Part shown: positions 11,101-63,332 of the stretch, one piece after another
How positions within the stretch are numbered: the stretch's first letter is position 1
How the letters are laid out: each line of letters starts with the position of its first letter
Assembly (NCBI GenBank): GCA_030680795.1
Contig: JAUXUL010000027.1
Coordinates: 1 to 64,000 of the forward strand
Length of the DNA: 64,000 nt
Direction: 5' to 3'
Source: Anaerolineales bacterium
GTDB lineage: Bacteria; Chloroflexota; Anaerolineae; Anaerolineales; Villigracilaceae
Program-made: the position numbers and the translations under genes
Notes under the pieces: model-generated
Database searches by the model: none
Seen by the model: the letters and a program-made list of their open reading frames with translations, nothing else
Told to the model about the DNA's origin: nothing

Positions 11101-14100
11101 TCTCTTTCGATGGGGGCGCGGGCTTCGCCGAAGGCGTGGCCGATTTCGTGCGGAAACTGGTAATGCGTCATACGCTCCAACGCTTCACTGCGCGATGACG
11201 CGGCGGCTGTCAGGAACGTGACGCGAGTGCGGGTGTGCGGCTTCAGGTCTATTTCCTGCGCCAGCGAAAAAATTGGGTCGAGCGTTCCGCCAGTAGCGCC
11301 GGCAAGGCGGCTGTTAACACGAGCGCCTGCGCCGCGCAATGCCAGCGGGGCGCGGGAAGTTTGTGACCTGCCCAGAAATTGGGCGCGGTCGCTTTCGTGG
11401 GCGCCGGTCACTTTGCGCCCGTCTTTGATGACCAACGCATGGATCAGCACGACAGGTTTTTCGTCCGCAGAACGCGGACGGCGCTGGAAAAGGAGCGCAT
11501 TTTCTTTAGGGAGATATTCGCTCTCGATAAAAAGTTTGTTGAAGGCCGGATGCTGCCGGTCAGCGGCTTGAGTTGCCAGCACGACTTCGCCATAACTGGT
11601 CAATTTCAGCCGTCGGGGTAGATTGCTGTCGTTCAGGATAGTCACCCGCCGGATTTCGACGCCATCCTTACCGACGATAATTTCGGTGCGCAGGGAAATG
11701 CCATTGTCCCAGCGCCGAAACTCGACCTTGTGCGGATAAAACAACACTTCCTGCTGTTCGGGCGCACAGCCGATAGGCTGGCAGGTGGCAGACCAGAGCG
11801 CTCCGCTATCGAGGTCTTGCACATAAATCCACGTGCCCCACTGATCTAGAGTGGTATCGGCATGCCAGCGCGTCAACGCAAATTCGCGCCATTGGCTGTA
11901 TCCGCCGCCGGCGTTGGTGATCAGCACGCTGGTATCGCCCTGTGAAAGCACATGCGCCTGCGGAATGGGACTATCCACTGACACACGCCACGGCTCACTG
12001 TTGACCAGCCGCACGCCTTCGGGCAAGTCCACTGGCTCATCGAGATGGGGATATTCAATTGGCGGGTTTTGCGGAATCTTTTCCTGAAGCAAAAGCTCCA
12101 CGCTCTGGATATGCTCGTCGGCGTGGAAACGTTTCACCATCACATCATCCAACAGATAGTTACAAGCCGCCATCAGGATCATGCCCTGATGATGCGCCAT
12201 GTAGGATTGAACGATGGCGTGTGTCTGTCCTTCTGGCAGGCGCGTTTTGGTGTAATCGAGCGACTCGTAAAAACCAAAACGTCCGAGCATGTTCAATTGC
12301 TCCAGATGCGCCATATTTTCCAACACGGCTTGGGGCTGTAACGAAAGCCCCATCAGCGACGCATAGGGAGCGATGACCAAATCATCGTGCAGCTCGCGTT
12401 TGTAGCCCAAGTGCGGCACACCAAAAGCCCGGTACTGGTAGTTCAGATTAAGATCGAAGGCATAGTAGCCTGATTCCGAGATGCCCCAGGGCACTTGCTG
12501 CTCCCGTCCATAATTCACCTGCGCTTCAAGTGCGGCGTAGCAACTATCCGAGAGAAACGTCCCGGCGTAGTTTTTGGTAAACAGGGCCGACATGAGATAT
12601 TCGAACATGGTGCCGTTCCATGAGAGCAGTACCTGCTTGCCGTCCACCTTCGTCACCGGCCGCCCCAGATGCTGCCAGTGACTTTGCGGCACATCGCCTT
12701 TGGCAATCGCGACCAGGCTGGCAATCCGGGCTTCGGATGCCAGCAAGTCGTAGTAACTCGGGTCGAGCCTTTCGGTGCTGGCGTTGTAACCGATGTGGAA
12801 GACCTGGCGGCGCTCATTGAACAAAAAGCGAAAATCCATGCCGGTCACAGCAGCGTGCGCCTGCTCGGCCAGGTCTCGAAAACCGATCAGCAGGGAGGTT
12901 ACCGTTGTGTGAGCCAACGATAAATCGTCATCCAATTTTTGACACCACTCACGCGCAACTTCATCTTGCCCCGTGCCGGAACCGGGACTATTTCGCTGTT
13001 GCGCCTTGAAATCATCCAATGCAATTTGGATGCGGTCATACAACGCTGACGCATCTCCAAGTGTGGGCAGTTCAGCGGGCAGGCTTGCGCGAAACTCCTG
13101 TCCGGCGGGCGTTTGCATAAACGGCGCATCCAGCCGGCTAAGCCAGGGGGCGAACAAATCCAGGCTGCGCTGCATATCTTGCAGGTGGTGGTGCATCAAG
13201 TTGAGATAGAGCTGGAGTTCGGTCAGGGACTCGGGATGGAGGTTGGGATGACTCTCGAGCAATTCCATCAGACGATGGGATACCCTTTCCCAACCTTCGC
13301 CTGAGAGCCAGGCAAGAGTCATTGTCCATGCCTCGGGCTGGTTCTGGATGGCGCTGACGCGTTCGTAAATGCTGGTCAATTCCACATCAAAAGGTTCGAT
13401 GGAGGCGTTCGGGTTGTTTTTTTCCAGCGCTTGCAACGTTTCTGCCAGAATATCCAGGATGACGAGCAACCCCTGCCACTGCTTGTCGCCCAGCACTGGA
13501 GCATCCGTCAGTGCAAGACAGCCATGTTTGAGTGCAATCAGGCAGGCCGCCAGGTTGCCGCTATCCACCGTGGAAATGTAGCGGGGCGGGAGCGCTGCTA
13601 GCGTCTGTGAGTCGTACCAGTTCAGCAGGTGTCCGCGGTAATGTTCCAGCCTGTCCAAGCTCTCAAAGGTTGAGCGCAAACGGACTGCCAGTTCGGACAG
13701 GCCCAAATAGCCCAGATCATAAGCCGACAACGTGGAGACCAGGAACAGGCCGATATTGGTCGGCGTGGTGTAGTGGGCCACATTACCGCGCGGCGACTCT
13801 TGAAAATGGTCGGGGGGCAGCCAGTGGTCATCGGGTCCGGCGAACTGCTCGAAAAATGCCCAGGTGCGCCGCGCCAGGCGGCGGATTTGCCTGCGCTGAG
13901 TCTCCGAGAGCGGTGTAGTGGTGTGTGTCACGGGCTGGCTGATCGCGTAGGCGATTTGTGGAGCGATAAGCCAGGCAACCAGCAAGGGCAGCGCCACCCA
14001 TATCGCGGTCGGGTTGAAAATTGCGGTAGAGACCCCCAGAAGTATGGTGAAAATCAAAGGAGCAGCCATCTCGCCCCAGGTTTCGTAATGCGTGTTCAAT

Positions 14101-16727
14101 CCAAACGAGCGCGCCGCATTCGCCGCAGTTGTCCATTGCAGCAGGTTTTTGCGCGCAATCAGCAGACGGGTCAGCGTTGTGCCGATTGCCCCCAGCATAA
14201 GCAGCGCTTCGTATGGCAAAAAAAGAACAGCAAGCGCCCAGCGGGTGAGCGGGAGCCGGATCGGTTCGAAAAGTTGTTTGAGTGTCAGCCGCCTGAGATT
14301 ACGTTTCCCTTGCTGGACAGTTTGTACTGCGATGGGCAGGGCGGAAGGCAGCAGCACCAGCACAGTCCAGACCAGGGGCGAGCCGGGCAGGAACAGCCAG
14401 CCTGCGGCGAGCAGTGCCAACAACGTGGGCGGCAACAGGCTGCGCCGCAGGTTGTCGAAAATTTTCCAGATATTGATGACCGATAAACGGTTGGGAGCCG
14501 ACCCATTTTTAGTGCGGACGATGGGGAACAACCACGGCAGTAACTGCCAATCGCCACGGATCCAGCGGCGCAGGCGGCGGGCGTAAACCAGATAGTGCGA
14601 TGGATATTCTTCGTACAGGACGATGTCTGTGACCAGCGCCGCGCGTCCATAAATCCCTTCAAACAGGTCGTGGCTGAGCAGGGTATTCTGGCGCACCTGA
14701 CCTGCCAGGCTGCGCTCGAAAGCCGCGACATCATAAATCCCTTTGCCAACGTAACTACCTTCGCCAAATAAATCCTGATACACATCCGACACAGCAAAAG
14801 AGTACAGGTCAAACCCGGCGTTTCCGGCAAAGATCTGCGAAAAGAGGGAACGGTTCGCGCTGGTCGGCTTGATGGACACGCGCGGTTGCAGTACGGTATA
14901 ACCAGCGATAACCGAGCGTCCGTCTGGGGCAAATTCGGCATGGTTAAGTGGATGCGCCAGGGTGGCGATCAGACGGTTGGCGCTCCCCTGCGGCAAGGAG
15001 GTATCTGCATCCAACGTAATAACATATTTGACACCGGATAGAATGCTCGCATCCCCAACCTGGGTTGTGTAGGCTGTTTCACCCAGACCGAGCAGCAGGC
15101 GATTGAAATCCGCCAGTTTGCCGCGCTTGCGCTCCCAGCCCATCCAGACTCCTTCAGACGGATTCCACTGGCGCTGACGGTGGAATAAATAAAAGGGCAG
15201 CGCCTGCGCGTACTTTTGATTGAGATTTTCAACACCAGCACTTGCCAGCGCAAGCAGTTGTTCGTCTTCCGGCATACGCTCTAATGAAGCATCACCAAAA
15301 TCGGTCAGCAGGGCATAGGTCAGTTGTGGGTCAGGATTGGAGAGATAATAGAGTTCCAACTCTTGCAGGAGATGGTTGAGTTCGCCGGTGCTTTCCAGCA
15401 AGGTTGGGATAACCACCATCGTGCGGTTACCTGCCGGGATGCCCTCGGAAAAATCCATGCGCGGCAGGCTTTGGGGTCGAATTTCATGTGTAACATTCCA
15501 ATTAACCAGATTGATTGAGGCCTCGAGTGCAAGTGCGAACACAAGCAGGCCGACGATGATTAATTGGATTAATGACCCGCCTGCAGCGTATGTATAATAA
15601 AGCAGACCCAGGACAATTAGCAGGGAGAAGAGACTGATACTCCCAAGATAAGTTAAAGTAGGATGTGCGAGCAGCCAACGCCGCAGGCCCGACTTCAATC
15701 CTGGCCGGTAATTGACACTTTTTTCTAGCAGTGAACGGCCCGACCCGATCAGGAAAAAACCAACGTGTGATCTTCGGTCGGGGCTGTGTTTGGCGGCCTG
15801 TGATTTGTCCTGCGCATCGTGTGTTAATTCAATTGCAGTTTGCGCGATGGATTCCTCACTTTGGATTGAATGATGCGCCAGTTCTTCTATAACACTTCGA
15901 TAGGTATTCCGTGTGTCAAAATCCATGCCCGCATAGATACCCGCTGGATCATCGTGTAGAATCTTTTCTACACGACTGATTTGCTCGAAGAATGTTTTCC
16001 AGTCCGTCGCGGAGAGCAGGCGCAGGCTGAGAAAACAGTTGGCGACCATGGTCTCGTTTGCAACCTCTGGGGAAGGCAGCTCACTCGGAGTTTCGATTAG
16101 AGTTTTGGGTGCGTCCAATCCAGTCAATTCAGATGTGGCAAAAACAAGCCGCTCCAAAATCCCGATGCGCAGCATGATCGGCAGCGCCCAAAGTTCCCCG
16201 ATCGTGAGGGGCGTGACCTGTTGATAGTCCTCCGAAAAAATGGCGGTTTGCGTCAGGTCAATCTGACTCTGGCTATAGTCAACCCATGCGCGTGCCAGCG
16301 CAAAAATTCGGGTGTGTCCCGATTCCAGTTTGGGTAACTCATTGAGAAAACTGGCTGGCAGGTCTTCTTCGATTTGGCGCAGGGTCTGTTTGACGATGTA
16401 AAAATTATCCAGCATCCATTCGCCTGCGCGAGAAACTGGCGCGTCATTGGCTGGCACAGACTTGAAGATTGCATTGGCATTACGCAACGCCAATTCCCAG
16501 ATTTTCAGATGATTCAACAGGTCAGTTTTTTGTGCCACAACAAAAGAACGTCCCGAAGGTTTTCTTGGTGGATTTTGATTGTTTTTCAAACCTTCGGGAC
16601 GGTTGTTGAATTTTAAGTGAGATGTTTCTATCTTGTGCGTTTTTGCCAATTCGTACGCAAATTCTCTCAGGCGGCTATCGGCGTCTTGATTGGCTGGTTC
16701 AGAAATAACCTTTGGGGCAATTTGCAT
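8109..16727 (-). CDS. ndvB: Cyclic beta-1,2-glucan synthase (GT84 + GH94 type)
   Basis: At 2872 residues it matches the size of NdvB/ChvB/Cgs proteins. Order of parts: a helical N-terminal region; two membrane segments (about 355-415); a glycosyltransferase core with YVITLDADTSLPQGSANRL near residue 570 (DxD), LLSHDLFEGIYGRAALVTD and RRLRRWIRGDWQLLPWLFP (QxxRW-like); further membrane segments (about 770-1000); a glycoamylase-like domain with SGYYAFDLNLNYQYRAFGVP and YMAHHQGMILMA; and two C-terminal glycoside phosphorylase-like repeats, the last holding GAGDWNDGMNRVGIEGRGES (about residue 2550, catalytic Asp). In proteobacteria such enzymes polymerise UDP-glucose, trim chain length and cyclise the product, which acts as an osmolyte or surface glycan. 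It starts 3 bp after the double UspA gene, suggesting one stress-linked transcript. Confidence 0.9.
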   Translation of the reverse strand: MQIAPKVISEPANQDADSRLREFAYELAKTHKIETSHLKFNNRPEGLKNNQNPPRKPSGRSFVVAQKTDLLNHLKIWELALRNANAIFKSVPANDAPVSRAGEWMLDNFYIVKQTLRQIEEDLPASFLNELPKLESGHTRIFALARAWVDYSQSQIDLTQTAIFSEDYQQVTPLTIGELWALPIMLRIGILERLVFATSELTGLDAPKTLIETPSELPSPEVANETMVANCFLSLRLLSATDWKTFFEQISRVEKILHDDPAGIYAGMDFDTRNTYRSVIEELAHHSIQSEESIAQTAIELTHDAQDKSQAAKHSPDRRSHVGFFLIGSGRSLLEKSVNYRPGLKSGLRRWLLAHPTLTYLGSISLFSLLIVLGLLYYTYAAGGSLIQLIIVGLLVFALALEASINLVNWNVTHEIRPQSLPRMDFSEGIPAGNRTMVVIPTLLESTGELNHLLQELELYYLSNPDPQLTYALLTDFGDASLERMPEDEQLLALASAGVENLNQKYAQALPFYLFHRQRQWNPSEGVWMGWERKRGKLADFNRLLLGLGETAYTTQVGDASILSGVKYVITLDADTSLPQGSANRLIATLAHPLNHAEFAPDGRSVIAGYTVLQPRVSIKPTSANRSLFSQIFAGNAGFDLYSFAVSDVYQDLFGEGSYVGKGIYDVAAFERSLAGQVRQNTLLSHDLFEGIYGRAALVTDIVLYEEYPSHYLVYARRLRRWIRGDWQLLPWLFPIVRTKNGSAPNRLSVINIWKIFDNLRRSLLPPTLLALLAAGWLFLPGSPLVWTVLVLLPSALPIAVQTVQQGKRNLRRLTLKQLFEPIRLPLTRWALAVLFLPYEALLMLGAIGTTLTRLLIARKNLLQWTTAANAARSFGLNTHYETWGEMAAPLIFTILLGVSTAIFNPTAIWVALPLLVAWLIAPQIAYAISQPVTHTTTPLSETQRRQIRRLARRTWAFFEQFAGPDDHWLPPDHFQESPRGNVAHYTTPTNIGLFLVSTLSAYDLGYLGLSELAVRLRSTFESLDRLEHYRGHLLNWYDSQTLAALPPRYISTVDSGNLAACLIALKHGCLALTDAPVLGDKQWQGLLVILDILAETLQALEKNNPNASIEPFDVELTSIYERVSAIQNQPEAWTMTLAWLSGEGWERVSHRLMELLESHPNLHPESLTELQLYLNLMHHHLQDMQRSLDLFAPWLSRLDAPFMQTPAGQEFRASLPAELPTLGDASALYDRIQIALDDFKAQQRNSPGSGTGQDEVAREWCQKLDDDLSLAHTTVTSLLIGFRDLAEQAHAAVTGMDFRFLFNERRQVFHIGYNASTERLDPSYYDLLASEARIASLVAIAKGDVPQSHWQHLGRPVTKVDGKQVLLSWNGTMFEYLMSALFTKNYAGTFLSDSCYAALEAQVNYGREQQVPWGISESGYYAFDLNLNYQYRAFGVPHLGYKRELHDDLVIAPYASLMGLSLQPQAVLENMAHLEQLNMLGRFGFYESLDYTKTRLPEGQTHAIVQSYMAHHQGMILMAACNYLLDDVMVKRFHADEHIQSVELLLQEKIPQNPPIEYPHLDEPVDLPEGVRLVNSEPWRVSVDSPIPQAHVLSQGDTSVLITNAGGGYSQWREFALTRWHADTTLDQWGTWIYVQDLDSGALWSATCQPIGCAPEQQEVLFYPHKVEFRRWDNGISLRTEIIVGKDGVEIRRVTILNDSNLPRRLKLTSYGEVVLATQAADRQHPAFNKLFIESEYLPKENALLFQRRPRSADEKPVVLIHALVIKDGRKVTGAHESDRAQFLGRSQTSRAPLALRGAGARVNSRLAGATGGTLDPIFSLAQEIDLKPHTRTRVTFLTAAASSRSEALERMTHYQFPHEIGHAFGEARAPIERELVEMGLNAYDVENFQRLLSALLYPVGTLRAAPHILAQNEKGQSGLWAFGISGDYPILLVRVRDSESPLLREALQAFTYWRSRHVTVNLVILNDQDTGYALDLHNAIQRLIRRMGADASLNQRDGIFVLRTDQLQPADKILFETAAGVILDEKSGTLAEHAQRLTTQPTRPPKFTASLSPTIDPEPINSLPLPDDLQIDNGLGGFSHDGKEYIIHLKSGQHTPHPWVNVIANPQFGFLVSEAGGSCTWAENSGENRLTPWRNDPVTDMPGEALYLRDEETGLVWSPTPMPAGAETAHVIRHGAGYSVFESQSHGLNHNLRLFAAPDAPVKIVHLRLQNLWERPRRITVTYYAEWVLGTTRDTHQAHIMPEFNPDKHALLASNRFNSEFGERVAFLASNKKPHGVTTDRAEFLGRMGSLRAPAALGRIGLASAVHAGLDPCAAIQLHVDLAPGQVEEVYFLLGESSNREESLELIGEYQSQVKVESAWQAVHNLWDEILGTITVQTPDAGMDLMLNRWLLYQTLACRLWGRTALYQSSGAFGFRDQLQDVLALLHARPDLTREQIINAAQHQFEAGDVLHWWNPPSGRGVRTRFSDDLLWLPFVTADYVTATGDQSILTEKIPFLKAEPLKPQEADRYSQYEATTEVYTLYEHCRRALEKGSTAGIHGLPLMGAGDWNDGMNRVGIEGRGESVWLGWFLHATLMRFAALCELMKDDPEPYHQQAERLSWALEAHAWDGNWYLRAFYDDGSLLGSSTNDECQIDSIAQSWAVLSGAADPARAHQAMESVNKLLINQADQLIMLLSPPFDKTLHDPGYIKGYLPGIRENGGQYTHAAIWSVWAYASLGQGDRAQALYRLLNPIYHSNTLEKTALYKTEPYSLAADIYSVSPHNGNGGWTWYTGSAGWMYRLGMEAILGVSRAGNNLKIDPCIPKDWPSYKLTYQFGTTRYLISVENPEGVNQGVQRVLLDGKALTEKHIPLSKDGVQHEVQVFLGQTMKE

Positions 16728-16729
16728 AA

Positions 16730-17689
16730 TTAACGCTCTGCGCGTAGTTCAGGAGAGATTAGATCTTGTTTGGCTGGCAGGTCCTGCACGATCAGCAGGG
16801 ATACTTTTCCATAGAAGATGAAATTGTTGACCATACTGCCATACGGCCATTGGCGAATCCCCGAATACCCATGCGCGCTGAGCGCGACCAGTCCAATACG
16901 TTCCTGCTCCGCCAGTTGATGCAGCGCTACGGCGGCATTGTCACTGGTGATGAGATGAGTTTGAACAGCAATGCCTTCCAGAACCGAACGTGATTTCACC
17001 TGTTCAAGATAACGCCCGGCTTCCTCGAGGTTACGCGCGACAATCTGGTTGGATAAATCAATATCTTCACGCGCCGGGGGCATTTGACGCGCCATTTCCG
17101 GGGTTTGCACAACCTGTACAAGATGAATCTGAGACTTATGAAATTGAGCCAATTGAGTAATGATCGGCAAAATATTTTCCGCCCGCTGGGAACCATCCAA
17201 CGGTACGAGTATGCGTTGATAAGCAAGGGGTTCTATTAATTCACCAGAGTAGTCCCCATATTTATGCGCCCGAACAATCAGCAGCGAGGTCAGCGCGCTC
17301 AAGATAATTTTTTGTGTAATGCTGCTGATGCCCCATTGAGTCAAGCCATTCCGTCCGTGGCTGCTCAATACAATTAATTTCATCCCCTGATTTTGGGCGT
17401 ATTCCGTAATTCCTTCCGCTACCAACCCTTCCAGGACTGCCGTCCGTACCTGAAGTCCTGATTCTTGAAAGCGCGCCTTTGTCTTTTCGAGATGGAGCGC
17501 GGCCTGGGTTTTATTGATTTGCCAGTTTAATAGATCAAATAATTGTGTTAAGGCACCCGCCTGGTTTTTATCCAGGACGTGCAACAGGATGATTCTTGCA
17601 TTGAAAGCCTGGCCTATAGCGGCTACGTGAGGCAAGACACATTCGGCAAGCAGAGAACCATCTAATGGTACGAGAATGGGGTCGAACAT
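16730..17689 (-). CDS. Tandem universal stress protein (two UspA domains)
   Basis: The start at 17689 is preferred: AAAGGA precedes the ATG and the protein then begins MFDPILVPLDGSLLAECVLP. A longer frame to 17932 only reads repeat sequence. Domain 1 (about 1-145) and domain 2 (about 158-300) each start with ILVPLDGS and end with the nucleotide-binding pattern: LIVLSSHGRNGLTQWGISSI and LVALSAHGYSGIRQWPYGSM. The GxxG(9x)G(S/T) motif of ATP-binding UspA proteins is only partly kept, so ATP binding is uncertain. It lies 2 bp upstream of the glucan synthase gene and is likely its operon partner in stress or osmotic response. Confidence 0.85.
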   Translation of the reverse strand: MFDPILVPLDGSLLAECVLPHVAAIGQAFNARIILLHVLDKNQAGALTQLFDLLNWQINKTQAALHLEKTKARFQESGLQVRTAVLEGLVAEGITEYAQNQGMKLIVLSSHGRNGLTQWGISSITQKIILSALTSLLIVRAHKYGDYSGELIEPLAYQRILVPLDGSQRAENILPIITQLAQFHKSQIHLVQVVQTPEMARQMPPAREDIDLSNQIVARNLEEAGRYLEQVKSRSVLEGIAVQTHLITSDNAAVALHQLAEQERIGLVALSAHGYSGIRQWPYGSMVNNFIFYGKVSLLIVQDLPAKQDLISPELRAER

Positions 17690-17760
17690 GGTTAATCCTT
17701 TCAATTCTTTGACAGCGGGCAAATAATATAGATACCAGCACTTTAATAGTATAACAAACA

Positions 17761-17794
17761 TTCCCCAGCCACATCCGCCGCTTGGCGGAGATTT
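17761..17794. repeat. Dispersed repeat B, copy 3 (partial)
   Basis: CCCCAGCCACATCCGCCG followed by CTTGGCGGAG shares the core of the copies at 7284 and 7755 but lacks the middle GCCGGGGAG arm. It lies in the 426-bp gap between the UspA gene and dnaE, which otherwise holds only repeat C. Confidence 0.5.
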
Positions 17795-17856
17795 CATTAA
17801 GTAGAATTGCCTATACCTTGCACGGTCACAAATTGCGGTTTTCTGTTGCCTGTTTC

Positions 17857-17988
17857 GCGGGGCTGAAGCCGCTTGCTCAGTGCATGAAAACGATTTCGAC
17901 AGGCTCAATCCACCGCCTTCGGGCTGGCGCAACCAATCGGTTAAAACCGATTTTCACGAACTGTGGCAGGACTTCAGTCCGCCGAATC
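17857..17988. repeat. Dispersed repeat C copy with repeat A nested inside
   Basis: The outer sequence matches the palindromic repeats at 62795-62900 and 63367-63472: GGGGCTGAAGCCGC, the GCCTTCGGGCTGG hairpin, the CGGTT-AAACCG hairpin, TTTTCACGAACTG and GTCCGCCGA. Between the first and second parts this copy has about 25 extra bases including TTTCGACAGGCTCA (17894-17906), which is repeat A. No transposase is near this copy. Confidence 0.6.
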
Positions 17989-18115
17989 CTGTTTTGCAAA
18001 AGCGCAATTTGTGCCCACGTTCAGTTCAGTATAGAGAGAAACGAAGGGGATTTCCATCCATGTCGCTTAGTGTAGCAGCCTGAAATATAGGCGCAGACCG
18101 TTTACAATCAAGCCG

Positions 18116-21100
18116 ATGTACATTCACCTCACAACTCACTCCGCCTATTCCCTGCAGGAGGCACTACTAACCCCAACCGACCTGGTACAAGCTGCGCAGG
18201 TCAATGGCATGTATGCAATTGGCCTCACCGATCACAATCTACTAACAGGGGCGATCGAGTTTGCCACGGCATGTAAAGAAGCCGGCATCCAACCCATTAT
18301 CGGTTTGGAGATTGATCTGGATTTCGGTCCACTCCACCTTCTGGCTACCGGTCTCGAAGGCTGGTCCAATCTTTGCCGGCTGAGTAGTACTCTTGCACTT
18401 CGAGACAATCCTGAAGCCCCCTGTGCTCTTGATTTATTGTCTTCCCATTCAAAAGACCTAATTGCATTAACCAGCGATCCGAAATCACTCAAAGAAATTT
18501 ATCCAGATCGGTTATATGTTGCCCTGCATGATCCATCCAAAGCCGCTTCTCTCTCAGACCTAGCACGTCAACTTGTCCTGCCCACTGTGGTAACTCATCC
18601 GTTGTATTACCTCAGCCCTGAACAAGCTGCTTTGCAAAGGACTCTCACGGCCATTCGCCTGAATCAAACTGTTGGCAACTTGCCCGATAAAGTCCTCGCT
18701 CCACCAAACGCCCATTTTTTGAGTTCGCATGAAATGGAATCGCGCTTCAAGGATTATCCTGAAGCACTGGCTGCTACACTGGAAATCGCAGAACGCTGCA
18801 AGTTTGATCTGCCGATTGGCAGGTCTCAAATGCCCACTGTTTCCCTGCCCAATGGAGTTACTGCGGCACAACATTTGCGAAATAAAGCCACAGAAGGTGC
18901 AAAGAATGTATATGGCGAGATCACCCCTGTCATCCAGGCTCGCCTGGATCATGAGTTGGAAGTCATCGCCAGGATGGGCTTTGAACCGATCTTCCTGATC
19001 GTTGAAGACATCATGGATTTTGCCAGGCAGAGCGGAGTTCCATTCTCATCGCGCGGTTCAGCAGCCTCCTCTCTTGTCGCGCACTGTTTGGGCATCACCA
19101 GTCCGGATCCGTTGCGATTAAATTTATATTTCGAACGCTTCCTGAATCCAGCCCGCAGCACGCCTCCCGATATTGACACCGACCTATGTTCGCGCCGCAG
19201 GGACTCGGTCATCCAACATGTTTTCGACACATACGGGACAGACCGCGTTGCCATGGTGGGGACAATCAACCGCTTCCGGCCGCGTTCGGCGCTGGGTGAT
19301 GTGGCCAAAGCGCATGGACTTGAACCATCGAAGGTCCGCGAACTCGCCAACCAGTTGCCGCATGCTTTCTGGGCTCGCTTCGAAGAATCCGAAGAAGGAA
19401 AAGCCCCGCCCTCCCCATTTGCGGAATTACGTGCTGCCTATCCAGCGCAGTCCTATCAGACCATTTTCGATGAAGCCGAAGCCATCCTGAAACTGCCCCG
19501 TCATCTCTCGATGCATCCGGGTGGTGTGATCGTCGCCCCGGGAGCACTGACGGACCTTGTGCCTGTCATGCGCTCGGGCGGGAAAGGCGTCATCATCACC
19601 CAACTGGATTTGGAATCGGTGGAGGCATTGGGACTGGTGAAGATCGATCTGCTGGGCATCCGCGGCCTGACCGTCCTGGGGGATGTGGCGGAATTCATTC
19701 AGGAGAGCCAACCGGATCAATATCCGACTCCGCTGGCTGTTTTGGATTCCACTCCATCCGATGATCCTGCGACGGCACAACGCATTGAGAAGGGTGAAAC
19801 GATCGGCTGCTTCCAGATCGAAAGCCCGGGCATGCGTGCCACCCTGCGCGAGATCCATGCGCGCAGTGAAGACGATATCATGGCCGCGTTGGCATTGTAT
19901 CGACCAGGTCCGCTCAGCGGCGGGCTCAAGGATGCCTTTGTGCGCCGCTTCAAAGGCGAAGAGCAGGTTAAACACCTTCATCCCACCCTTGCGCCATTAT
20001 TGGATGAAACCTTTGGTGTGATCTTGTATCAGGAGCAGGTGCTGCGTATCGCGCATGAATTAGCAGGTTTCAGTCTGGCAGAAGCGGACTTGTTGCGTCG
20101 AGCGATGAGTCATTTCGATCCCGGCAAGCGCATGCAGGAATTGGAACGCAAGTTTGTACAGGAAGCCCAATTAAAAAGCGGCGTGCCAACTGAAACCGGT
20201 GAAAGGATCTGGGAGATGATGGCAGCCTTTGCCGGCTATGGGTTTCCCAAGGCACATGCGGCCTCCTATGCCAGGGTGGCCTGGCGCTCTGCCTGGTGCA
20301 AATCCCATTTCCCGGCTGAGTTCATGGCGGCAGTGCTGGCCAATTGGGGCGGCTACTACAGCCAGCGTGTTTATCTCAACGAAGCGCGAAGAATAGGATT
20401 GAAGGTTCGACCTCCACACGTGAATTATTCCTCGCATAATTTTTCCGTGAGAAAACTTGAAGGGACAGATGAACGCGCGCTCTTCATGGGATTGGATCAG
20501 GTAAAGGAATTAACCCGCCAGACGATCCAACGTATCATTCAGTTTGCGCCTTTTACTTCCCTGGAAGATTTTTTGACGCGCGTTGATCCGCGTACTCAGG
20601 AAGCCGAAAATCTCGCGCGGGTTGGCGCTTTGGAGGGCTTGGGAAAAATCCCCTCGATACTCAGGCGATTGCAAAATGGAGGCTGGCAACAAAACCAGAT
20701 GAGTCTATTTGAATGGACTGATTCTGGCGAGGAAGATTGGACACTGGGACAAAAAGTAAACGCGCAGTTGGAAATTCTGGGCGCCAGCCTGGATGCTCAT
20801 CCGCTTGAATTAGTATCAGAGAAAATTGTGCAAGCTGGAGCGATCTCGACCTTGGAAGCGGCGGAAAGAATCGGGCGCAGGGTGACTGTTGCCGGTGCAA
20901 GGCAGACCTCTCATCGCAGCCGCACAGCCAAAGGGGATTCGATGCTGTTCCTAACCCTGGAAGACCTAAACGGAACATTGGATGCAATCCTGTTTCCGGC
21001 TGTTTATCGCATTGCCAAACCTATGATTGATTCAAACAAGCCACTCTTGGTTACCGGCGTGATGGAGATGGATGCTGAACGCGGGGAACCATTTTTGAGG

Positions 21101-21645: not shown

Positions 21646-24012
21646 ATGACACTCAACGAATCAGACACCCGTTCAAAATTAATTGACCCTGTCCTGCATG
21701 ATCGCGGCTGGACGGAAGATTTAGTTCGCCGTGAAGAGACTGCGGGCGCGGTGGAAATTACAGATAACCGCGCGCGCCGCCGTGCGCATGGTCGTGTGGA
21801 TTACACCTTGCGCGTGAAAGTAACTCGTGATTCGCAGCCCGTTGCAATTGCGCTGATCGAAGCCAAAGCGGAAAACCTGCCGCCTGACCACGGACTTGAA
21901 CAAGCCAAGGCATATTCCATAAGCAAAAGATTGAATGTGCCATTTGTGTTTTCGACGAATGGTCATTTGTTTGTGATGTACGAAGTTTTTGGCGGCACAA
22001 CCAGCAAGCCGCGCAAACTGCAAGAGTTCCCAAGACCAGAAGAATTACGAGCCGCGTACGAAAAAGGCATGGGCTTTACGCTTGATTCAGAAATTGCCAA
22101 GCCTTTGCTGACACGTTATTCAGGCGGCGAAGCGACGCGGCGTTATTATCAGGACGCGGCTATTCGCGCCGTTTTTGAGAAAATCGCCAAGGATGACAAT
22201 CGCGCCTTGCTTTCATTGGCAACTGGCGCGGGCAAGACCTTCATTGCCGTACATTTATTGAAGCGCATTGCTGACGCGGGTCAATTGAGACGCGCATTAT
22301 TTATCTGTGACCGTGACGAATTACGGGCGCAGGGATTGGGCGCGTTCCAAAATGTTTTTGGAGCGGATGCGGCAGCGGTGATTGGCGGCAACCCGCAGAA
22401 GAACGCGCGCATTTTGATCGCGACCTATCAAACACTGGATGTGGATAGCGAAGAAGCCGATGCAAACTTCCTGAAAAAGAATTACCCAGAAAATTATTTC
22501 AGTCACATCATCATTGACGAATGCCATCGTTCGGCATGGGGCAAATGGAGCGAGGTTCTTAAGCGGAACCCTGCCGCAGTGCAGGTGGGACTGACAGCAA
22601 CGCCGCGCCAGCTAAAGGGGATTGATTGGGGCGATTTCCCAGACGACGATAAAGTCACAGCGGATAACATCCAATATTTTGGCGAACCCGTCTACGAGTA
22701 CGATATGTCGCAAGGCATGGACGATGGCTATCTGGCGGCGTGTGAAATTATCCAGCGCGATATTTTTCTGGATGAAAAGAAAAAGAGTGAACGCGAAACA
22801 GGCGTGGAGCAGGGCGACCTGAAAGATAAAACGTTGACCGACCCGCTGACGGGCGAAGCAGTGGATTACAAAAGATTGAGCAAGAAATACAGCGCCGCCA
22901 GTTTTGAAGACCGCCTGCAAATGCCCGACCGTGTGGGTGCCATGTGCGAGGATTTATTCGACCTTTTCCTGCGCACAGGCGGACCCGAACAAAAGACGAT
23001 CATCTTTTGCGCGCGCGATAGTCATGCAGATAAAGTATCCACTGCCTTGAATAATCTTTATGCCAAATGGTGCAAGGAAAATGAAGTGAAACAATTACAG
23101 CCGTACGCCTTCAAATGCACCGCGGCTTCTTCGGGCAATGACCAACTCGCCGATTTGCGCGGCGCGTCCCGCAGTCATTTCATCGCCACCACAGTGGATT
23201 TACTGAGCACAGGCGTGGATGTGCCTGTCATCCAGAACATCGTCTTTTTCAAATACGTGCAATCGCCGATTGCCTTTTACCAAATGCTCGGACGCGGCAC
23301 GCGCCTGCACCCGCCCAGCGGCAAGTTGATGTTCCACGTCTACGATTACACGGATGCGACACGCTTGTTTGGTCATGAGTTTCTCACACGCTTCCGTGAA
23401 CAACGTGAACCTTTCAATTATGGTCCCATGCCCAAACCCTTCACACCGCCAGTGCAAGTGGAAGGCTTTGACGTGACCATTACCGAAGCAGGCAAATCCA
23501 TTTTGACGATGATCGATGGCAAAGCCATGCCTGTCACCGTCGAAGAATATAAGGAAAACTTGTCAGCGCAACTCGTGACTCAAGCCCCTACGCTCGATGC
23601 TTTCCGCAGCCTATGGATTGATCCTTCGGCGCGGCATGACCTGCTTGAAAAACTGCCAGATGGCGTGCGCTCGGCGCTGCTGGTTCGTGCGCTGGATAAC
23701 ATGGATGCCTTCGACCTGTATGACGTGCTCGCCGAACTTGGTTATGGATTAAACCCCCGCACCCGTCTTGACCGTGCGGCTGCTTTCACCTACAAACATT
23801 CGGCGTGGCTGAATGGGATGCCCACCCAAAGTGCTGAGACTTTGCGCGCACTGGCGTTGCAATTCGGGCGCGCAGGCACAGACGGTTTGGAAAACCCGCA
23901 CATCTTTGAAACGCCCGAAGTGAACAAAGCAGGCGGATTGATCGCCTTGCGCGCCTTCGGTCAACCTGCCGAGATTTTGCGCGAGACCAAGACACGGATA
24001 TTTGCTGCATGA
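21646..24012 (+). CDS. hsdR: Type I restriction enzyme, R subunit (EcoEI-like)
   Basis: 788 residues, the size of EcoEI-type HsdR. The N-terminal nuclease domain contains VDYTLRVK and the PD-ExK-like end IALIEAKAE (about residue 70). The SF2 translocase has Walker A LATGAGKT (about 189), the DECH box IIIDECHRS (about 288), SAT-equivalent LTATPRQL, and a motif VI QMLGRGTRL. HsdR cleaves DNA after ATP-driven translocation when the site lacks methylation. Its stop overlaps the hsdS start by 4 bp (ATGA), showing translational coupling. All motifs are intact. Confidence 0.93.
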   Translation: MTLNESDTRSKLIDPVLHDRGWTEDLVRREETAGAVEITDNRARRRAHGRVDYTLRVKVTRDSQPVAIALIEAKAENLPPDHGLEQAKAYSISKRLNVPFVFSTNGHLFVMYEVFGGTTSKPRKLQEFPRPEELRAAYEKGMGFTLDSEIAKPLLTRYSGGEATRRYYQDAAIRAVFEKIAKDDNRALLSLATGAGKTFIAVHLLKRIADAGQLRRALFICDRDELRAQGLGAFQNVFGADAAAVIGGNPQKNARILIATYQTLDVDSEEADANFLKKNYPENYFSHIIIDECHRSAWGKWSEVLKRNPAAVQVGLTATPRQLKGIDWGDFPDDDKVTADNIQYFGEPVYEYDMSQGMDDGYLAACEIIQRDIFLDEKKKSERETGVEQGDLKDKTLTDPLTGEAVDYKRLSKKYSAASFEDRLQMPDRVGAMCEDLFDLFLRTGGPEQKTIIFCARDSHADKVSTALNNLYAKWCKENEVKQLQPYAFKCTAASSGNDQLADLRGASRSHFIATTVDLLSTGVDVPVIQNIVFFKYVQSPIAFYQMLGRGTRLHPPSGKLMFHVYDYTDATRLFGHEFLTRFREQREPFNYGPMPKPFTPPVQVEGFDVTITEAGKSILTMIDGKAMPVTVEEYKENLSAQLVTQAPTLDAFRSLWIDPSARHDLLEKLPDGVRSALLVRALDNMDAFDLYDVLAELGYGLNPRTRLDRAAAFTYKHSAWLNGMPTQSAETLRALALQFGRAGTDGLENPHIFETPEVNKAGGLIALRAFGQPAEILRETKTRIFAA

Positions 24013-25172
24013 CAATCACAAAACGAACTTTACCAAAAAGCTGGCATTGGGCAAAACTAGAAGATGTTTGTGCTCTTGTTGGTAATAGCATTAATCCGCA
24101 ATCAAATAAGGAAGAAATATTCGCTCATTACAGCATTCCTTCGTTTGACGATGGAAGAAAGCCCGTTATCGAAAATGGCAATAATATTCTTAGCAATAAA
24201 GTTGTTTTTGATAATGGGGTAGTTCTGTTTTCTAAACTTAACCCACGCATAAGTAGAGTTTGGTATGTGAATGACGAGCAAGCCTACAAGCGAATATGTT
24301 CTACTGAATTTTTGCCGTTAGCACCAAATCTAGATCAGTTAGATCCTATGTTTCTAACTTGGATATTACAAGAGGCGAATCTGATAACAGCTCTTCGAGC
24401 AAAGACTGCTGCTGCAACAAAAAGTCGAGAACGCTTGAAACCAAATATTGTCCTAAGCACACAAATCCCACTTCCTCCATTAGATGAGCAAAAACGTATT
24501 GCTGCCCGTCTTAATGAGCAAATGAGCATTATCACTCTGGCGCGTCAGGCAATCGACGATCAATTTAGTTTATTAACCAGTCTTGTCAATTCCTATTTTC
24601 GAGAATCTTTGCAAAGAATAACCACGAAAATGCACCTGTCCGATTGCATGGTTGAAGTCAAAAAAGGTGTTGGGGAAACTTGGGCGCAATATCCTGTCCT
24701 CGGCGCAACTCGTGCAGGGGTTGCACCTGCCAAAGAAAAAGTTGGCAAACAACCACAGCGCTATAAATTGGTGGAACCTGGAACCATCTTCTATAATCCC
24801 ATGCGTATTATGATCGGCTCCATTGCCATGCTGGATGATGGCGACGAGTCAGGGATCACTAGTCCCGATTACGTTGTGCTCAAAGGCAAAGAAGGAATTC
24901 TTCATGCGCGCTGGTTTTATTATTGGTTCCGCTCGCCGTATGGAGAAAACTTTATCAAATCCCTTGCACGCGGCGCAGTCCGTGAGCGTATGTTGTTCAA
25001 CCGCCTTGATAAAGGTGAAATTGAATTACCTGATTGGGATACCCAGGTAAAGATCGCTGAGAAATTAAAGGAGATCAAGACTTTCAAACAAGCCCTTGAA
25101 TCTCAACTCGCCGAAATCAACGAGCTGCCGTCCGCGCTGTTACGTCAAGCGTTTGCGGGTGAATTATCGTAA
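24009..25172 (+). CDS. hsdS: Type I restriction-modification specificity subunit
   Basis: 387 residues with two target-recognition halves, each closed by the conserved helical region: PLPPLDEQKRIAARLNEQM (about 155-175) and LPDWDTQVKIAEKLKEIK (about 338-355), with a C-terminal LPSALLRQAFAGELS. HsdS reads the bipartite DNA site for both methylation and cleavage. The 4-bp overlap with hsdR and the palindromic element plus transposase gene directly downstream are notable, because hsdM normally follows without interruption. The recognition sequence cannot be deduced. Confidence 0.9.
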   Translation: MTITKRTLPKSWHWAKLEDVCALVGNSINPQSNKEEIFAHYSIPSFDDGRKPVIENGNNILSNKVVFDNGVVLFSKLNPRISRVWYVNDEQAYKRICSTEFLPLAPNLDQLDPMFLTWILQEANLITALRAKTAAATKSRERLKPNIVLSTQIPLPPLDEQKRIAARLNEQMSIITLARQAIDDQFSLLTSLVNSYFRESLQRITTKMHLSDCMVEVKKGVGETWAQYPVLGATRAGVAPAKEKVGKQPQRYKLVEPGTIFYNPMRIMIGSIAMLDDGDESGITSPDYVVLKGKEGILHARWFYYWFRSPYGENFIKSLARGAVRERMLFNRLDKGEIELPDWDTQVKIAEKLKEIKTFKQALESQLAEINELPSALLRQAFAGELS

Positions 25173-25181
25173 TTGTGCAAC

Positions 25182-25276
25182 GTAGGGGCGGGTCTCTTTT
25201 GCGGGCAAGACACCTTTCCCAACCGTGACGAATTTCGGGCAGCGTGCCATTGCCAACACGAAAGACCCGCCCCTAC
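25182..25276. repeat. REP-like inverted repeat upstream of a transposase gene
   Basis: GTAGGGGCGGGTCT at 25182-25195 is exactly complementary to AGACCCGCCCCTAC at 25263-25276, with about 67 bp between them. A single related arm occurs at 30834 (GTAGGGGCGCCCC). The element begins 10 bp after the hsdS stop and ends 28 bp before the REP-type transposase gene. Confidence 0.65.
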
Positions 25277-25303
25277 AATGACATGCAAATGCGGAATTGA
25301 TTT

Positions 25304-25795
25304 ATGAAATTTGACCCCAAAATCCACCACCGCCGTTCCATTCGTTTGCAAGGATATGATTATTCACAGGCAGGCGCATATTACGTCACCATTGTTGCAT
25401 GGAGACGGGAACATGTATTTGGCGAGGTCGTCAACGCCGAAATGCAATTGAATAAATTTGGACAAATTGTCAATCAAGCGTGGTACGATTTACCCAAGCA
25501 TTATCCGCATGTTGAATTGGATACGTTTTGTATCATGCCCAACCATGTCCATGCAATTATTGTGTTAAACGACAATCCCGCCATCAAACGCCACCCGTTG
25601 TCTGAAGTTGTGCGCGCATTCAAATCCTTTTCGGCACGGCGAATCAATTCATTGCGAAACACACAAGGCATTCCCGTCTGGCAACGCAATTATTACGAGC
25701 ATATCATCCGCAACCACGAAGATTATCTTTCCAAATCCAATTACATTCTGGATAACCCCCTCAATTGGGAAAACGATGACGAAAATAAACGGTAA
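25304..25795 (+). CDS. REP-associated tyrosine transposase (Y1, HUH family)
   Basis: 163 residues with the order typical of TnpA-REP proteins: the N-terminal RRSIRLQGYDYSQAGAYYVT, the HUH metal motif in FCIMPNHVHAII (about residues 75-86), VVRAFKSFSARRIN, and the catalytic Tyr region NYYEHIIRNHEDYLSKSNYI followed by NPLNWEND. Such single-copy enzymes act on palindromic REP sequences as single-strand DNA transposases and are often domesticated. The gene is inserted between hsdS and hsdM, and its last 20 bp overlap the hsdM start, so it may have taken over the coupling of hsdM translation. Confidence 0.88.
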   Translation: MKFDPKIHHRRSIRLQGYDYSQAGAYYVTIVAWRREHVFGEVVNAEMQLNKFGQIVNQAWYDLPKHYPHVELDTFCIMPNHVHAIIVLNDNPAIKRHPLSEVVRAFKSFSARRINSLRNTQGIPVWQRNYYEHIIRNHEDYLSKSNYILDNPLNWENDDENKR

Positions 25796-27320
25796 AACAA
25801 AAAACGGTTCAACAAACGGCTCGCGTAAATTCTCTTCGCAAGCATCTCTTGATTCATACGTCTGGAGCATTTGCGATATCCTGCGCCGCTCCAATTGTGC
25901 GGGCGCTTTGCAATACGTTCCTGAATTGACATGGATTTTATTTCTGCGCATTCTGAATGACACCGAAACCCAAGAAGCCGAACGCGCAGAGGCGGTTGGC
26001 GCCAAATACAGGCACTCACTCAAAGCGCCCTATCGCTGGCAGGATTGGGCTGACCCAGAAGGCAAGAAACGCATTGAATTGCAGAATGGCGCATTGGGCG
26101 CATTCTTTGGTTTTGTGAACGGCGAATTGTTGCCGTATCTCAAAGGCTTGCGCGATAAGCCAAATGCCAATTCACGCCAGAAGGTCATCAGCGAAATCCT
26201 TTCGAGCATCGAGCGCGTGCGTGTGGATACCGAAAAGAATTTTCTGGATGTGCTGGATAAAGTCCATGAAATCCACCATGAGAATATTGATACCACGCAC
26301 ATCTTTGCTTTGTCACAGGTATACGAAGGCTTGCTCCTGAAAATGGGTGAGAAGGGTAATGATGGAGGTCAATTCTTCACGCCGCGTGAAGTCATCCGTG
26401 CCATGATCCGCACCATTGAGCCGAAACTTGGCAAGACCATCTACGATCCCTGCTGTGGGACGGGCGGCTTCCTTGCTCAATCTTATGAATATCTCGATGA
26501 CAAACTGAAATCAAAAGACGCAACGCCAGATCAAATCGAAACGCTCAAAACCCGCACTTTCTACGGGCGTGAAAAAGAGAACCTGATCTACCCAATTGCC
26601 CTGTCAAACCTTGTATTGCATGGTATTGACGAACCGCGCCTTTGGCATGGCAATACGCTTACAGGTCAGGAAACGTATGGCGGCTTATTTCAGGAATCCC
26701 CATCCCTATTTGATTACATCTTAACCAATCCGCCTTTCGGCGGCAAGGAAGGCATGGAAGCACAAACGCGCTTCGCCTATAAAACCCGCGCCACACAGAT
26801 TTTGTTTCTGCAGCATGTGATTGATAGCCTCAGATCTGGTGGTAGATGCGGCATTGTCCTTGATGAAGGCGTATTATTCCGCACCAATGAAACCGCCTTT
26901 ATGCAAACCAAACGTAAATTATTGGATGATTGTGATGTGTGGGCAATTGTCAGTTTGCCTGGGGGTGTGTTCACAGCGGCAGGCGCAGGCGTGAAAACCA
27001 ATCTGCTATTCTTTACCAAAGGTAACCCCACCGAAAAGATTTGGTATTACGATTTATCCGATATCAAGGTTGGCAAGAAAACCCCATTTACCGCCAAGCA
27101 CTTTGAAGACTTTTTCAAGTTCCTGCCCACTCGTGCCGATTCCGAAAGAAGCTGGACGGTCACACGCGAAGAGATTGAAGCCAAGAATTTTGACTTGAAA
27201 GCTGTTAATCCGAATGCAAAAGTGGATGAAGATACCCGCACGCCAAATGAATTGCTTGATTTTATTGAGGCAAAGGGGAAAGAAGTGCAGGAAGCCTTGA
27301 TGAAATTGCGACGTATTTAA
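25776..27320 (+). CDS. hsdM: Type I restriction-modification methyltransferase subunit
   Basis: The start at 25776 begins MTKINGKTKNGSTNGSRKF. A longer frame from 25608 would overlap the transposase gene and lacks family residues. The N-terminal helical domain (about 25-170) is followed by KGNDGGQFFTPREVIRAM and the SAM-binding motif YDPCCGTGGFLAQS (about residue 223), then the catalytic N6-adenine motif LTNPPFGGKEG (about 318). HsdM with HsdS methylates adenine at the target site and protects the chromosome. It is separated from hsdS by about 600 bp carrying a palindromic repeat and a REP-type transposase. Confidence 0.93.
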   Translation: MTKINGKTKNGSTNGSRKFSSQASLDSYVWSICDILRRSNCAGALQYVPELTWILFLRILNDTETQEAERAEAVGAKYRHSLKAPYRWQDWADPEGKKRIELQNGALGAFFGFVNGELLPYLKGLRDKPNANSRQKVISEILSSIERVRVDTEKNFLDVLDKVHEIHHENIDTTHIFALSQVYEGLLLKMGEKGNDGGQFFTPREVIRAMIRTIEPKLGKTIYDPCCGTGGFLAQSYEYLDDKLKSKDATPDQIETLKTRTFYGREKENLIYPIALSNLVLHGIDEPRLWHGNTLTGQETYGGLFQESPSLFDYILTNPPFGGKEGMEAQTRFAYKTRATQILFLQHVIDSLRSGGRCGIVLDEGVLFRTNETAFMQTKRKLLDDCDVWAIVSLPGGVFTAAGAGVKTNLLFFTKGNPTEKIWYYDLSDIKVGKKTPFTAKHFEDFFKFLPTRADSERSWTVTREEIEAKNFDLKAVNPNAKVDEDTRTPNELLDFIEAKGKEVQEALMKLRRI

Positions 27321-62918: not shown

Positions 62919-63332
62919 ATGACCTACTGGCGACTCCATTATCACCTCATCTGGGCAACACATGACCGCGAACCCAGCCTCACGCCCGAACGCGAGAAAA
63001 TGTTTTACGGCGTGCTTTACAACAAAGGTAAAGAACTCGGATTGATAATCCACGCCGCTGGTAATATTGAAGACCATGCTCATGTTGTTGCATCCATTCC
63101 ACCAAAACTCGCGGTTGCAGATTGTGTTCGTCATCTCAAGGGCGCAAGCGCATACGCCATTAATCACATGGACGGTAGCGATGGCAAATTCAAATGGCAA
63201 GGCGGATACGGTGCGTTGAGCGTTAGCGAGCGTTCATTGGAAACGGTGATGGAATATGCCGCAAGACAGAAGGAACATCACCGCGATAATAAATTGATTG
63301 CGGTGTATGAGAGAATTGATGAGGAAGAATGA
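62919..63332 (+). CDS. REP-type tyrosine transposase (Y1, HUH) flanked by repeat C
   Basis: 137 residues from ATG 62919 after AAAGGAAA. A longer frame from 62790 only reads repeat C. The N-terminal YWRLHYHLIWATHDREPSLT is followed by the HUH motif in NIEDHAHVVASIPPKLAVAD and the Tyr helix TVMEYAARQKEHHRDNKLIA. It is of the IS200/TnpA-like class that nicks and joins single-strand DNA. With identical-type palindromes on both sides it has the layout of a REP-RAYT unit. Confidence 0.87.
   Translation: MTYWRLHYHLIWATHDREPSLTPEREKMFYGVLYNKGKELGLIIHAAGNIEDHAHVVASIPPKLAVADCVRHLKGASAYAINHMDGSDGKFKWQGGYGALSVSERSLETVMEYAARQKEHHRDNKLIAVYERIDEEE

Follow-up and report, generated by a model that had tools for sequence, protein, structure and literature searches.

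The RAYT (REP-associated tyrosine transposase, TnpA-REP) gene examined here is one of many RAYT entries into type I restriction-modification (R-M) operons, and its position reflects a recurring partnership or lodging, not an accident. The entries are found co-oriented with the hsd genes, a fair share of them run into the gene that follows and their catalytic residues are kept; no such pattern near hsdM is seen for DDE and IS200/IS605 transposases in the same genomes. This recurrence, which spans five or six phyla, is co-oriented whenever RAYT and hsd genes lie within 3 kb and involves different junctions of the operons, was missed by the original prediction. We think it probable that the locus holds a REPtron, a RAYT of subclass 2.4 together with its double-foot REP, which has settled co-oriented between hsdS and hsdM of an intact-looking type I operon, and that such operons are a favoured lodging that offers read-through and coupling. 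The persistence of RAYTs as 'domesticated' transposases is a standing question, for which the association with R-M genes across phyla provides a concrete setting: either R-M operons shelter RAYTs, or RAYT nucleases have a part in immunity. With it, a nuclease derived from a transposase joins the genes embedded in R-M operons.

The operon and its inserted gene

The window, by which we mean the whole stretch analysed (bases 1-64000 of contig 8 of a 3.45-Mb genome in 54 contigs), carries the operon on its forward (+) strand. The gene hsdR (21646-24012) encodes a type I restriction subunit of 788 residues with the Pfam families ResIII and EcoEI_R_C, and overlaps by 4 bp hsdS (24009-25172), whose 387-residue specificity subunit matches PF01420 in two stretches. 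A palindrome (25182-25276), the RAYT gene (25304-25795, 163 residues) and hsdM (25776-27320), which encodes an N6-adenine methyltransferase of 514 residues (PF02384, PF12161), follow in the order originally proposed. The ATG of hsdM at 25776 lies inside the RAYT gene, whose stop codon (25793-25795) falls within hsdM; homologues of hsdM begin at about the same place, so that the predicted 20-bp overlap of the two genes (25776-25795) stands.

All three genes of a type I system, hsdR, hsdM and hsdS, are present as reading frames without stops. HsdR retains the sequences GAGKT, DECH, TATP, EAK and GRGTR, and HsdM retains DPCCGTGGFL and NPPF, which we take to be the diagnostic motifs of these subunits; the score of HsdR against NF046051 is 432.7 bits, under the cut-off of 550. 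Compared with the orthologues in another genome, G038, HsdR is 70-72% and HsdM 82% identical, with dN/dS values of about 0.10 for hsdR and about 0.05 for hsdM at a dS near saturation, while HsdS shows 26% identity and the dN/dS comparison is limited to the other two genes. Judged from its genes alone, the R-M system looks intact, as had been predicted, and the insertion of RAYT and palindrome appears to be tolerated. The further expectation that the insertion would part methylase from nuclease expression did not hold up. A search between hsdS and hsdM turned up no terminator-like site, by which the palindrome is also rejected as a terminator, and a promoter-like match at 25250-25279 does not stand out from chance, 12 such matches being found in the region against 7.8 ± 2.4 expected. 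The overlap is likely to make hsdM translation depend on the upstream reading frame.

The palindrome has arms of 27 nt (25182-25208 and 25250-25276) that are 81% complementary, with GTAG at one end and CTAC at the other, and as single-stranded DNA it folds with -25.1 kcal/mol, compared with a mean of -14.1 for shuffled sequences (z -4.0). Palindromes carrying GTAGGGGCG occur head-to-tail within 150 nt 12 times in the genome, where 0.03 such cases are expected from the tag counts. Among the nearest RAYTs, L044 has the same 12-base stem within its gene and L172 nearly the same one. Across 120 RAYTs, GTAG palindromes were found upstream of the gene in 24 cases, downstream in 19 and inside it in 84, compared with 4 of 453 control windows, and where a locus has palindromes in both positions, the stems inside and beside the gene often agree (L069, L121, L177). 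From these features, the palindrome is a probable REP of the window RAYT. The inner palindromes (for example in L069, L121, L177 and L140) lie in nearly the same position behind the HUH motif. They are present in 16 of 26 hsd-labelled genes versus 68 of 94 others, as counted with the first set of labels (see below).

The protein itself matches PF01797 with 30.4 bits (cut-off 23) and comes half a bit under the cut-off of 80 for the RAYT model NF047646, with 79.5 bits, or 78.0 bits in the genome search. Its score against the IS200/IS605 model NF033573 is 23.9 bits, far under the cut-off of 55. His81 and His83 of the HxH motif and Tyr147 are invariant across 30 aligned RAYTs, and Tyr147 pairs, in an alignment counted by hand, with residue 115 of E. 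coli TnpA-REP (4er8). In PMC8266576, Y115F is the catalytic mutant. An AlphaFold model of the RAYT has a mean pLDDT of 93.1, and its best match in the PDB is again 4er8 (TMq 0.63, E 5.8e-8).

The account of subclass 2.4 (RAYT group 4) in PMC6006769 describes double-foot REPs together with in-frame REP insertions, the inner REP being predominant in the subclass and not universal. Like these proteins, the window RAYT has an HUH motif with a single tyrosine and a double-foot REP of the GTAG...CTAC type beside its gene; unlike many of its relatives, which carry such a palindrome within the gene in line with that description, it has no in-frame inner REP. The assignment to subclass 2.4 fits, on the basis of the REP type and of the inner REPs of relatives. 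The arrangement also resembles the GTAG REPs and REPtrons outlined in PMC3733652, in that a GTAG-foot palindrome adjoins a tyrosine transposase gene. Elsewhere in the window there is a second Y1 transposase (62920-63332, + strand), a true IS200 type that scores 77.5 bits against a cut-off of 55 and is flanked by apparently related repeats.

Recurrence beside type I genes

A scan of about 85,000 species genomes gave 575 confirmed relatives, of which the best 79 were picked by similarity to the window RAYT and are not a random sample. The locus set excludes copies of the window itself (L004, L006, L007, L014, L123), and each distinct RAYT domain sequence enters it a single time, which reduced 140 domains to 127. 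Fifteen loci among the best 79 of the 575 have a co-oriented type I hsd gene no more than 700 bp away, at various junctions. One locus (L045) repeats the R-S-RAYT-M order of the window, whereas others have the order R-RAYT-S (L093, L121), R-RAYT-M (L100, L114), RAYT-S-R (L073, L111) or M-RAYT-S-R (L051, L080, both with another ORF between hsdM and the RAYT), and six (L055, L059, L060, L076, L083, L098) give partial views. By their record titles, the 15 loci belong to Anaerolineae or Anaerolineales; Nitrospira, Nitrospirae and Thermodesulfovibrionales; Azoarcus and other Proteobacteria; Desulfuromonadales, Geobacteraceae and another delta-type bacterium; Leptospiraceae; and Latescibacterota. 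We take these to represent five or six phyla, according to the placement of the delta-type bacteria. In a separate sample from the window's own order, 4 of 26 loci (L015, L022, L037, L043) have a type I hsd gene placed in this way.

The embedded position is co-oriented, between hsd genes, and recurrent. None of 31 hsd-near RAYT domains, a count that still includes L054 and L104, has the opposite orientation within 3 kb; at a further locus, L075, an hsdR on the opposite strand lies 3.3 kb from the RAYT. Those two loci were later discarded as hsd neighbours and excluded from the final hsd counts, the upstream helicase of L104 being RecG and the methylase of L054 being of the Eco57I/MmeI type. 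The counts of catalytic residues, joints, operon direction, inner palindromes and supported branches keep the earlier labels, in which L104 stands as hsd and L161 as other.

Methylase_S is the commonest Pfam family among RAYT neighbours on both sides. It accounts for 7 of 67 downstream neighbours, beside 5 with N6_Mtase and 3 with HSDR_N, and for 6 of 67 upstream neighbours, beside 3 with N6_Mtase and 3 with EcoEI_R_C, in counts that take in the window's own hsdM and hsdS. RAYTs also adjoin metabolic genes, among them those for ThiC, MTHFR/homocysteine methyltransferase, a SpoU methylase and glycyl-tRNA synthetase. Plasmids and phages were rejected as vehicles, RAYTs being found in 7 of 72,556 plasmid records and 1 of 50,697 phage records.

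The association is also seen when it is approached from hsdM. Among 61 genomes of the order, with 39 HsdM_N places, a RAYT match lies within 5 kb of at least 9 of the 39, all on the same strand, where 0.40 are expected (P 6e-10 for the nine, 1e-8 for eight without the window); such proximity counts were read from the match tables by eye, and the expectations were computed genome by genome from match counts and rounded genome sizes. Since NF047646 at E 0.001 takes in some IS200 genes, the expectation is raised. The places concerned are G000:C8, G008:C2, G011:C1, G016:C2, G017:C6, G019:C79, G023:C186, G031:C132 and G057:C226. At seven of the nine loci (L158 and L160-L165) the RAYT near hsd genes was confirmed by a separate RAYT model; this model missed the RAYT of G011, whose match is partial (profile positions 97-146), and found that of G031, which is weak by NF047646 (3.9e-4). 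A sample of 101 genomes from the phylum gave a RAYT match within 5 kb, on the same strand, in at least 7 of 82 HsdM_N places (G000:C8, G011:C1, G071:C1, G087:C41, G087:C45, G217:C45 and G256:C62), with 0.52 expected; two of these seven are shared with the order sample, and G256 has a fragmentary hsdM match.

Other transposases of the same 61 genomes behave differently. DDE_Tnp_1, with 116 places of which 25 are in one genome, falls within 5 kb of none of the 39 hsdM places. The same is true of IS200/IS605 transposases at E 1e-12 (0 of 39), a small control in that their 52 places would give about 3 at the RAYT's rate.

Many entries and the fit at the junctions

A tree of the RAYTs, reduced from 127 to 120 rows by leaving out short or weak domains and including 26 hsd-linked genes, shows these genes scattered, implying many entries. 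The hsd label changes 23 times on the tree, compared with 23.9 times when shuffled (175 of 500 shuffles are as low), and on well supported branches alone at least 9 changes are unavoidable under the earlier labels. An hsd-specific clade was accordingly rejected. A close relative of the window RAYT with an R-M setting, L015, lies between hsdM and hsdS, and its HsdM is only 25% identical to that of the window. For the related pair L162 and L163, both with the order M-S-RAYT-R, dS is 0.40 for the RAYT (dN/dS 0.23) versus 1.10 for hsdM and 1.35 for hsdR, which suggests that the RAYT is younger than the operon or has been exchanged. An attempt to date the window RAYT by comparison with L172, its nearest relative, gave no result, dS being saturated at 4.6.

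The catalytic residues His, His and Tyr are kept in 26, 25 (with one gap) and 26 of 26 hsd-labelled rows, and seven RAYT pairs that were compared have dN/dS of about 0.12 to 0.25. Two RAYTs (L037, L160) overlap both neighbours by 4 bp, and five more (L015, L022, L076, L093, L100) have one 4-bp joint each. Overlap at the downstream joint is found for 7 of 16 hsd-near versus 12 of 53 other RAYTs, a rough comparison in which starts are those of the longest open frame. Both neighbours are co-directional with the RAYT in 54 of 93 rows, these being what is left of 110 after removal of 11 at contig edges and 6 with no matching ORF. RAYTs in general sit in operons, and the 20-bp overlap in the window is one such case.

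What occupies this junction in related operons? The original prediction had proposed a comparison with relatives that lack the transposase. The nearest operon, the orthologous one of G038, has other genes at the junction, and no exact empty site for the window insertion was found, so that the ends of this insertion are presumed. Between hsdS and hsdM of G038 lie six ORFs and four scars derived from the hsdS end, two of which are joined in frame, at the same point, to the hsdM start. Among 201 genomes of the order, one showed scars of this type, the window's own match being its hsdM start, and the window junction has no such scar. In two further genomes, G067 and G095, hsdM is directly preceded by other genes, and in G065 (L153, 5500-7080) a RAYT 43% identical to that of the window overlaps by 14 bp an hsdM that is split into two frames and cut short. 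From the contents of these four junctions, the hsdS/hsdM junction accepts foreign genes in this R-M lineage. The G065 locus is seen as a decayed relative of the window arrangement.

Lodging, partnership or cargo

Why should type I operons hold RAYTs so often? PMC3733652 takes RAYT expression to depend probably on read-through from upstream. On the reading we favour, a REPtron lodged in the operon, the RAYT would have no promoter of its own and would be expressed by read-through, and ribosomes ending the RAYT frame would re-start on hsdM, so that methylase synthesis stays coupled. Type I operons may be preferred in that a small, co-oriented gene without a terminator could be tolerated between coupled genes, in that these operons spread horizontally, and in that a loss of the insert which also harmed hsdM or hsdS would leave the host open to attack by its own nuclease. 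We infer these steps, and the reasons for the preference, from the arrangement of the genes.

Several other readings compete with this lodging of a REPtron. The RAYT might be a working accessory of the R-M system, an HUH nuclease acting on the single-stranded DNA or hairpins of invaders, or one that nicks near the palindrome and thereby leads to hsdS recombination, as a counterpart of PrrC and TgvAB. The strong enrichment of RAYTs near type I genes, the 4-bp overlaps with both neighbours in L037 and L160, the kept catalytic residues and the purifying selection all speak for such a role, as does the defensive role that genes embedded in type I operons can have (PMC11411939, PMC12707154). We regard it as unlikely nonetheless, for the hsd-linked RAYTs are scattered and form no dedicated clade, RAYTs of the same set adjoin ThiC, SpoU methylase, MTHFR and glycyl-tRNA synthetase genes, 30 of the 39 hsdM places of the order have no RAYT within 5 kb among the matches listed, and the RAYT drew no hit from the PADLOC models at E 0.001. 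The wider form of this idea, in which subclass-2.4 RAYTs have been recruited repeatedly as functional R-M parts, their nuclease acting beside HsdRMS on incoming DNA or driving the exchange of hsdS or cargo at hsd junctions, seems to us similarly doubtful.

Alternatively, the junction between hsdS and hsdM could be a general cargo slot, filled by homologous exchange through conserved hsdS ends and hsdM starts, so that recombination and not its own transposition brought the RAYT. The G038 operon, with its six other ORFs, four hsdS-end scars and two fusions to the hsdM start, is what such a slot might look like, and the other genes directly before hsdM in G067 and G095, together with the low dS of the RAYT relative to hsdM and hsdR in L162 and L163, point the same way. 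Against this, the window junction lacks a scar, the scar was found in a single one of 201 genomes of the order, and RAYTs are found also at the M/S, S/R, R/S and R/M junctions, so that we consider a slot of this kind quite improbable as the explanation. A single chance insertion into a decaying R-M system, for which the broken hsdM behind the RAYT of G065 would be a model, is the least credible, and indeed very improbable, in view of the recurrence of the RAYT-hsd arrangement; decay of the window system is disfavoured because its motifs are intact and the dN/dS of hsdR and hsdM is low.

Genes embedded in hsd operons are known, and Payne and colleagues have reportedly dealt with genes embedded in defence clusters more generally. 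Examples are rlo/mlo of Campylobacter, cited in PMC5183652, prrC in a section of PMC12707154 and tgvAB in one of PMC11411939, all of them, like the window RAYT, extra genes between hsd genes. These are, however, linked ORFs of other kinds, an anticodon nuclease and a type IV restriction pair respectively, whereas the window has an HUH nuclease with its own REP. Neither of the two RAYT papers takes up this setting: the words 'restriction' and 'hsd' do not occur in the main text of PMC6006769, where operon setting is not treated, and 'restriction', 'hsd' and 'operon' each occur 0 times in that of PMC3733652, where type I R-M operons go unmentioned. In the open-licence literature, judged by titles, counts and abstract openings, we came across no paper that describes RAYTs inside type I operons, and as a recurrent embedded gene there they are unreported in the literature searched.

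Finally, the G038 junction (L179; G038:C15:48500-68000), whose six ORFs and four scars lie at 12602-19245 in reversed coordinates, looks like a serial capture of cargo genes. In its two fusions, about 40 codons of the hsdM start are combined with about 20 codons of the hsdS end, apparently joined at a short shared sequence, and the other two scars consist of the hsdS end alone.
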